A stretch of 50,295 nt of DNA. It comes from Candidatus Buchananbacteria bacterium CG10_big_fil_rev_8_21_14_0_10_33_19 (GTDB lineage Bacteria > Patescibacteriota > Patescibacteriia > 2-01-FULL-39-33). Position 1 is the first letter of the stretch; each line of letters begins with the position of its first letter. Location of the stretch: the NCBI GenBank assembly GCA_002773855.1, contig PEZY01000005.1, positions 72,237-122,531 on the forward strand, read 5' to 3'. The notes beneath the pieces were generated by a model. It made no database searches, was not told where the DNA came from, and was given only the letters and a program-made list of their open reading frames with translations. This document shows positions 34,152-37,621 of this stretch, piece after piece. Made by a program: the position numbers and the translations under genes.

Positions 34152-34760
34152 TTATCTTTTATAAACTCGACTAGAAATTGTAGTCTGAATAAATATTTCC
34201 TTTTCAAATTTGGGATTAATATTTTGATTTTTTAATTTTAAAAATATTACCACTCGAGGTTGTTTGTTGGTCGCTGGGTTAGTGTTATAAATATCTTCTA
34301 AGTTTGGGATGATATAAAACTTAACATCAGTTACCGCTACGTCATCAGCATTCAAATTGGCCGCTTGGCCATTGACAATATATTCCAAATTATTACCACT
34401 AGCTGATTTAACAATCGAAGTCTCATTACCAAGCTCATCTTTTAGAAAATCAATTCTATCCTGTGGCTGGACCGCCTCCACTGGATATTTTATTTGCCGA
34501 GCTCTTATTTCTCTGGCTATTTTTTCGACAATATAGCGACCGTCATTTTGTAATCGTTGATAGCTAGCAGTGTGCTGATGTAAGCTACTAGCATTAAGAT
34601 AAACCGCAGAGATAATAACTGAGGCAATAGAAAAAATACCAATAGCAATGACTACTTCAGCGAGACTGAAACCAAAACATAAAACATCTAACGTGTAACG
34701 TCTAACATTTTTTCTATTATTTTTTGATAATGCTCCAAAGCATTTTACCAACTTTATCAT
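34152..34760 (-). CDS. Prepilin-like (type IV minor pilin) protein with unusual long leader
   Basis: Prepilin motif CFG/FSLAEVVIAIGIFSIASVI preceded by an element-derived leader. Confidence 0.8.
   Translation of the reverse strand: MIKLVKCFGALSKNNRKNVRRYTLDVLCFGFSLAEVVIAIGIFSIASVIISAVYLNASSLHQHTASYQRLQNDGRYIVEKIAREIRARQIKYPVEAVQPQDRIDFLKDELGNETSIVKSASGNNLEYIVNGQAANLNADDVAVTDVKFYIIPNLEDIYNTNPATNKQPRVVIFLKLKNQNINPKFEKEIFIQTTISSRVYKR
34678..34708 (-). repeat. 7-bp tandem array (a), downstream of S23 gene
   Basis: + strand AAAACAT CTAACGT GTAACGT CTAACAT; minus-strand units fit AYGTTAN. Confidence 0.85.
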
Positions 34761-35064
34761 TTAATTTAAGTATTTCTTTATAATCTATTTCTTTTATTAA
34801 ACCTTGTTCATAAGAAAAATATAATAAATATTTTGACTCCTTCAATGAACCATAAGATATTTCTAAAAAATTTATATAGACTTTACAATTTACACCTTTT
34901 CTTCTAGCATAGCCCTCTATATAATTTAAGATAACCGACATAGAAGATCTTCTAATCTGAGAAGTAATGCCATACAATTCATCTTTAGGAAAACTTTTTG
35001 TAATATTATAAATCATTTTTACATACTTGTGCATTGTTATCTTTAAATCATCATGAAAATTCAT
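34717..35064 (-). CDS. S23/four-helix bundle protein (23S rRNA intervening-sequence protein family)
   Basis: KMIYNITKSFPKDELYGITSQIRRSSMSVILNYIEGYARR...FLEISYGSLKESKYLL matches the S23/IVP family pattern. Confidence 0.9.
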   Translation of the reverse strand: MNFHDDLKITMHKYVKMIYNITKSFPKDELYGITSQIRRSSMSVILNYIEGYARRKGVNCKVYINFLEISYGSLKESKYLLYFSYEQGLIKEIDYKEILKLNDKVGKMLWSIIKK

Positions 35065-35070
35065 ACTACT

Positions 35071-35098
35071 ACGTTTTATGTTATAAGTTAAACGTTAC
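35071..35098 (+). repeat. 7-bp tandem array (b), upstream of S23 gene
   Basis: + strand ACGTTTT ATGTTAT AAGTTAA ACGTTAC. Confidence 0.85.
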
Positions 35099-35105
35099 AT
35101 ATAAT

Positions 35106-35771: not shown

Positions 35772-36344
35772 TTAATTATTTAAAATATCCATTCGACCAG
35801 AAATGCTATTAACTCTAATATTTTTAGAGACGCTCAAATCATCGGCGTGTTTCAAATTAATCAACACTTCATTACTAGCAACCAGTAAATCATCCAGATA
35901 CATTTTAATATCACTCCGTGGTGGTGTTATTTCTATAATCAAATTATTACCTGACATATCAACTATAGTTTTTTCTAATTGCACAGTGGCTATATCAATA
36001 ATAGCATTGACGCTATTTTTGGCTTTTAATGAATATGAACAGTTAACTGAACATTTATCTATCTCAAAAATATATGACACTGGTACTTGTCCGGCTACCA
36101 CTTTACCAGACAAAGATGAAGTTTGCATTTGTTTAATACCATCCAAAATTAGTCTTGATTCATTATCCATATACCGAGCTTTTTCATTGCCTCTAAAATT
36201 TACCACCGTTAAAGTTGAAAATATCCCAACAATAGCAATGACAATTATCATTTCGGCTAAAGTAAAGCCATTTTCAGATAGCGCAAAACGCCTAACGTAT
36301 AACGGTTTATTTCTTTTTAAGAGTAGTCTAACTAATTTTATCAT
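35772..36344 (-). CDS. Prepilin-like (GspH/pseudopilin) protein with unusual long leader
   Basis: ENG/FTLAEMIIVIAIVGIFSTLTVVNFRG. Confidence 0.8.
   Translation of the reverse strand: MIKLVRLLLKRNKPLYVRRFALSENGFTLAEMIIVIAIVGIFSTLTVVNFRGNEKARYMDNESRLILDGIKQMQTSSLSGKVVAGQVPVSYIFEIDKCSVNCSYSLKAKNSVNAIIDIATVQLEKTIVDMSGNNLIIEITPPRSDIKMYLDDLLVASNEVLINLKHADDLSVSKNIRVNSISGRMDILNN
36285..36305 (-). repeat. 7-bp tandem array (c)
   Basis: + strand AAAACGC CTAACGT ATAACGG; minus-strand units fit NYGTTAN. Confidence 0.8.
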
Positions 36345-36354
36345 TAAATTTAAA
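36307..36354 (-). pseudogene. Putative S23 3'-end remnant between arrays (c) and (d)
   Basis: + strand aattttatcattaaatttaaa vs S23 gene aactttatcatttaatttaag (18/21 by eye); frame reads FKFNDKIS*TTLKKK* vs S23 C-terminus LKLNDKVGKMLWSIIKK*. Confidence 0.5.
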
Positions 36355-36369
36355 TTAAATTAACAAAAT

Positions 36370-36397
36370 ATGTTATATGTTATGCGTTACGTATTAC
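36370..36397 (+). repeat. 7-bp tandem array (d)
   Basis: + strand ATGTTAT ATGTTAT GCGTTAC GTATTAC. Confidence 0.85.
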
Positions 36398-37176: not shown

Positions 37177-37213
37177 GGGATAATTTTTAATTTCTAATTT
37201 TTAATTTTCAAAT

Positions 37214-37621
37214 TTATCTATCCAACCCCTCATTGGTTAGCGCATACTTACCACTAGTAAGTCCCAACAAGCCTGACTCTAAATAAAATTCTACTCTAAA
37301 ATTATCATCAGTCATTTGTGTTAAAACATATCGTAAACTATCAGTATTGACCGGATCAATAAGCGTTGAAACATTTGGTGATTGACCGCTACGACCAGTA
37401 CAAAAGTTTATTAGCATACCTTCGCTGCATTCTGGTATTTTATAAGTATTAAACTTCAAAAAATAAATATTCATTTCTGATTCTAAAATCCGCATATCGC
37501 CAAGTCGTTGATAATCCTTTATTCTAATTGAGTTATAAATAAACCACCAAACCAGCAATGAAACGGCAGTTATTAGTAAAACAACATAAATAATTATTTT
37601 TATATTCTGTTTTTGAGTCAT
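37214..37621 (-). CDS. Pseudopilin-like protein lacking a recognisable prepilin cleavage motif
   Basis: N-terminal TM then IRIKDYQRLGDMRILESEMNIYFLKFNTYKIP, resembling pilin helix/loop regions. Confidence 0.6.
   Translation of the reverse strand: MTQKQNIKIIIYVVLLITAVSLLVWWFIYNSIRIKDYQRLGDMRILESEMNIYFLKFNTYKIPECSEGMLINFCTGRSGQSPNVSTLIDPVNTDSLRYVLTQMTDDNFRVEFYLESGLLGLTSGKYALTNEGLDR

Follow-up and report, generated by a model that had tools for sequence, protein, structure and literature searches.

The S23 gene and its arrays in the pilus operon

The window, i.e., the whole stretch of 50,295 nucleotides analysed here (from contig PEZY01000005.1 of a Candidatus Buchananbacteria genome), includes a pilus operon in which a gene for an S23/23S_rRNA_IVP four-helix-bundle protein lies between prepilin genes, outside any rRNA gene. 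S23/IVP proteins are known from intervening sequences (IVSs) in 23S rRNA, the ends of which pair as a stem that is excised; to our knowledge, no function is known for S23 or "four helix bundle protein" genes. In the operon, the S23 gene is the only ORF of a unit, element 1, that encodes no recognisable transposase, and a second, shorter unit, element 2, provides the leader of a prepilin gene:

34152..34760, minus strand: prepilin-like gene, its leader from the S23 3' end and array; start codon within the 3' end of S23 but in a different frame
34673..35099, minus strand: element 1, ~427 bp, between two prepilin genes; missing from the orthologous junctions L127-L133, decayed in L126
34673..34707, minus strand: downstream terminal array of element 1, ATGTTAG ACGTTAC ACGTTAG ATGTTTT (ATGTTTT); lag-7 p=0.0005
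34717..35064, minus strand: S23 gene, sole ORF of element 1 (PF05635, E=6.5e-26; AlphaFold model)
35071..35098, plus strand: upstream terminal array of element 1, ACGTTTT ATGTTAT AAGTTAA ACGTTAC; lag-7 p=0.008
35772..36344, minus strand: prepilin gene (N_methyl, PF07963), leader encoded by element 2 (leader comparison)
36282..36397, no strand assigned: element 2, ~116 bp, without S23 or with an internal deletion; arrays at 36282-36305 (minus) and 36370-36397 (plus)

The initial annotation had described the S23 ORF as framed by inverted period-7 arrays, a description borne out by the sequence, by Markov-null statistics and by the family-wide comparison below. The units of element 1 are degenerate and mutually inverted; within the window alone, their lag-7 scores are modest but above chance, and their inverted complementarity reaches 28 against a null mean of 17.9 (p=0.008; Markov nulls throughout). 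The upstream array begins 6 bp beyond the S23 start codon, as annotated; the downstream one begins 9 bp past the stop rather than 8, and its four units at 34680-34707 (minus) are extended to 34673 by a fifth, ATGTTTT. The S23 3' end and the prepilin start overlap in different frames at 34717-34760. A bAvd profile matches the S23 ORF weakly (E=2e-7, below cut-off), and an Rfam search near the locus gave sub-threshold matches only.

The annotation had missed the inverted AYGTTAN pair of element 2 and the other AYGTTAN arrays of the genome. Flanks of window-type S23 genes rank high as matches to the element 2 arrays, and a weak similarity (53 versus a shuffled mean of 35 and maximum of 52) at about 36308-36350 likely marks an S23 3' remnant inside element 2, which is not present in the orthologue of the sister species G001 (L126). 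A three-unit AYGTTAN search of the 945-kb host genome with at most two mismatches returned 14 overlapping matches in about six places, and one with the reversed pattern. The host has a second S23 gene (the two lie at C10:326743 and on C2), whose flanking inverted arrays are TATAAAGTC-like and differ in motif and period. A further period-7 tandem array (TAATTTT/TAATTTC) occupies 37181-37215 of the same operon, between a prepilin peptidase-like gene and the one that follows, with no S23 nearby.

S23 proteins and flanking arrays across bacteria

The S23 protein is kept by purifying selection, with dN/dS of 0.08-0.16 between copies that mostly occupy different loci. Six residues (Q36, R39, S43, N47, E50 and E76) are each at least 96% conserved across 166 proteins; such a polar conserved set is unusual for a plain helical bundle and marks a candidate functional site. 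No nuclease or transposase domain was recognised in S23. The AlphaFold model of the window protein (pLDDT 95.6) superimposes on 2GSC and 2RLD with TM scores of 0.90 and 0.88, and on Avd from the reverse-transcriptase complexes of diversity-generating retroelements (DGRs; 8UBx, 4DWL) with TM ~0.8. 2GSC is a homopentamer (PMC4990558); as a speculation, a five-fold S23 ring would suit the 4-5 units found per array.

To examine the flanks of the family at large, we collected 166 non-redundant S23 loci of several phyla from genome contigs, whole-genome relatives and plasmids, and compared each upstream flank with the reverse complement of its own downstream flank, using flanks swapped between loci as the control and a score of at least 24 as the threshold. 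Complementary flanks were found at 89% of the loci versus 6% of the swapped pairs (p=2e-83), with median scores of 35.5 and 16, respectively, and the own downstream array was the best of all 166 for 93 of the upstream arrays. The best period was 7 at 116 of the 166 loci upstream and 108 downstream, followed by 8 and 9, with control stretches flat; the median array length is 4.6-4.7 units. An independent sample gave complementary flanks for 74% versus 8% in Cyanobacteriota and 59% versus 3% in Bacteroidota, with period 7 or 8. The proposed tie between arrays and S23 genes is upheld by strong enrichment beside S23 in both the 166 loci and the independent set. Chance or microsatellite slippage is ruled out as an origin by the matched inverted arrays at both flanks.

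The array motifs vary from locus to locus, and S23 is the only protein that the loci have in common. Mapped on the S23 protein tree, unit length changes 20 times versus 36.2 in shuffled data, none of 200 shuffles being as low, and one supported clade of 10 members is entirely of period 8. Unit length and S23 lineage are linked; S23 may well bind the arrays, and the clustering of unit lengths could also come from co-inheritance without binding. S23 is present in 48 of 58 genomes of the searched relatives and, over the cut-off, in 60 of the 80 genomes sampled from another phylum, and none was found in viral contigs and phages. AYGTTAN arrays had no match in S23-free relatives, in numbers too small for significance. 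Units of S23 gene plus arrays are no peculiarity of this locus: they turn up in widely differing bacteria.

Empty sites, target duplications and array-only derivatives

The initial annotation had proposed a candidate mobile element in the pilus operon, to be checked against orthologous loci without it. Such loci exist: the pilus junction lacks element 1 in seven relatives (L127-L133), and in the sister species all that is left is a decayed remnant, the 3' end of S23 with one array, from which the following prepilin gene now apparently takes its start and leader. Prepilin leaders are normally cleaved, which may explain why insertion is tolerated here. Two of these relatives show other repeats at prepilin junctions. 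L127 (G002) has, at the junction of element 1, an A-rich octamer-like array with CAAAACAAAAAAACAC twice, possibly an independent array insertion, and L131 (G008) has a different inverted repeat, CCCCTCCTTACGAAGGAGGGG, at the upstream junction, at the start of another prepilin; insertions seem to be tolerated at prepilin starts.

Insertion can be read to the base in cyanobacterial conjugative plasmids. In the VirB operon, four empty plasmids read AAAAAGTAATTAACAAATAA, and filled plasmids read AAAAAGTAAT-(array-S23-array)-GTAATTAACAAATAA, an exact 5-bp duplication of GTAAT; the filled copies L201 and L209 have five versus three upstream units, and another plasmid has a half-deleted copy. A second plasmid operon shows an exact 5-bp duplication of TTCTA (L218 filled, L220 empty), and a third site a 5-bp repeat with one mismatch. 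The two exact duplications are both cyanobacterial, with none in Patescibacteria. In plasmid cases 2, 3, 6 and 7 the flanks are too diverged for duplications to be read, and so are the empty relatives of the window copy. The occupied and empty plasmids are near-identical, and the arrays are the termini of the inserted DNA.

The same edges emerge from copies at unrelated loci. Element 1 and a Falkowbacteria locus (L047) are 73% identical in DNA over a stretch that begins 45 bp ahead of the S23 gene and ends 24 bp behind it, i.e., from array to array; similarity is likewise bounded by the arrays among plasmid copies at three different loci (L200, L217 and L218) and stops at them in further cases (H44, H142-H145). 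As similarity starts and stops at the arrays in otherwise unrelated loci, the arrays are the edges of a moving unit. Empty orthologous sites, 5-bp duplications and arrays as termini together support the idea of a mobile element: there is good support for its moving by DNA insertion, and we regard a mobile element bounded by the inverted arrays as nearly certain.

The unit moves into gaps between co-transcribed genes. Among 152 loci with two neighbours, 118 S23 genes are in sense with both and 7 antisense to both, with gaps of ~55 bp to the neighbouring genes. Such a bias would be expected if the element depends on host transcription or if antisense insertions are selected against, and an RNA intermediate is also compatible with it. 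Not every S23 copy is active: in three Bacteroidota sets (L311/L347/L343, L348-L350 and L302/L304/L315), S23 is conserved across species along with kilobases of flanking DNA, which suggests that these copies are stable or domesticated.

Arrays also occur without S23. An inverted AGGGAAC-like pair at a TraM locus (L210) is a MITE-like derivative. In G047, which has 12 S23 copies, period-7/8 arrays outside S23 loci number 7.5 per 100 kb versus one in 257 kb of S23-free samples, and a resident S23 array is the best match for 4 of 12 such solo arrays (p=0.003); since most have no such best match, their link to S23 is partial. G043, also rich in S23, has few extra arrays of this kind (1.5 per 100 kb).

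Mechanism, rival explanations and known systems

Left array, S23 gene and right array make up a minimal mobile DNA element of ~430 bp. We propose that S23 forms a pentameric ring like that solved in 2GSC, which would recognise the 4-5 units of either terminal array and bring both ends together, and S23 may either catalyse insertion itself or recruit host factors for it. It could act in trans on S23-less array pairs and so spread array-only derivatives. In host transcripts, the element may shield or excise itself, in the manner of rRNA IVSs, through a stem formed by its two arrays; in RNA folding the arrays can pair (z=-3.2), with the window element at z=-0.4, not better than shuffled. On balance, we favour a minimal mobile element in which S23 recognises the arrays at the termini and drives insertion or recruits the factors for it, and S23 is probably the mobility protein of the element. 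The broader proposal, that S23 is the mobility enzyme of an unrecognised and very widespread transposon class with tandem-array termini and no known transposase, with rRNA IVSs and many dispersed heptamer repeats as its products, falls a little short of an even chance.

The sense bias, the Avd-like fold, the weak bAvd match and the potential of the arrays to form a terminal stem would all suit RNA-mediated mobility, in which the element RNA is excised by RNase III at the array stem and reverse-transcribed into DNA, with S23 acting like Avd. However, an RVT_1 domain was not found in G001, G021 or G024, which have 3, 8 and 7 S23 matches, respectively, and the sole RVT_1 of the host genome (L226, C10:231240-231848) lies away from both of its S23 genes; we thus consider this route rather unlikely. 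Similarly, with no catalytic domain recognised in S23 and S23-less array pairs at L210 and element 2, S23 could be a passenger or array-binding cofactor, an unrelated transposase inserting the element in trans and making the 5-bp duplications. This is improbable, as the motifs differ by locus with S23 as the sole common protein, unit length follows S23, and a survey of the host genome for Y1 transposases found none. Lastly, S23 might be a stable host regulator that autoregulates or tunes operon expression through binding to array RNA, with cis-regulatory arrays and a unit that no longer moves; operonic sense placement and the conserved Bacteroidota cases are in its favour, but the polymorphism between occupied and empty sites, the duplicated targets and the occurrence of similar copies at unrelated loci tell against it, and the empty sites largely refute it as a general account, making it highly improbable.

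Several known systems resemble the S23 element favoured here. The 23S rRNA IVSs of Coxiella and Leptospira share with it the S23 ORF, a size of ~430 bp and terminal inverted repeats (PMC4990558). In Coxiella, the IVS has been described as a selfish element of 428 nt with termini that form a 28-bp stem and with tandem heptamers (GACAGAT) of variable copy number ahead of the S23 ORF (Warrier et al. 2016, PMC4990558); these heptamers make the rRNA IVS look like an element of the same kind. How rRNA IVSs arose has been described as unclear since 1990, with transposition cited as one hypothesis for that of Coxiella (Warrier et al. 2016, PMC4990558), and IVP ORFs have been reported from scattered rRNA insertions in CPR bacteria (PMC11270868). 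The window element has the S23/IVP ORF and complementary termini of an rRNA IVS; unlike one, it lies between protein-coding genes, has arrays at both ends with a unit varying with S23 lineage, and belongs to a family with target duplications and empty sites. If S23 and its arrays are a mobile element, rRNA IVSs would be recast as one form of it, and both S23 function and IVS origin become directly testable.

Avd of DGRs has the same four-helix-bundle fold, whereas the bAvd score of S23 is below cut-off and no reverse transcriptase adjoins S23 in the host genome. REPIN/RAYT systems and MITEs share short inverted ends, non-autonomous derivatives and intergenic spread, but here the ends are tandem arrays and the host genome has no Y1 transposase. 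Target-site duplication is shared with classical insertion sequences, a recognisable transposase being absent here; if S23 with its arrays is mobile, a way of transposing that uses no known transposase fold may come to light. We found no link of S23 to intergenic inverted arrays or target duplications in the open-licence literature, and a prior description elsewhere is possible. Cyanobacterial STRR and TAACTGA repeats are likewise heptamer arrays that lie between genes, close to start codons, in overlapping sets of phyla, although described without a link to S23 (PMC4679880), and TAACTGA arrays were not found flanking S23 in the Cyanobacteriota/Bacteroidota sample. How the dispersed TAACTGA heptamers spread was not evident, and one possibility suggested was a mobile protein that binds the repeats (MacGregor 2015, PMC4679880); S23 with its arrays, if mobile, would be a candidate for what generates the heptamer repeats dispersed in bacteria.
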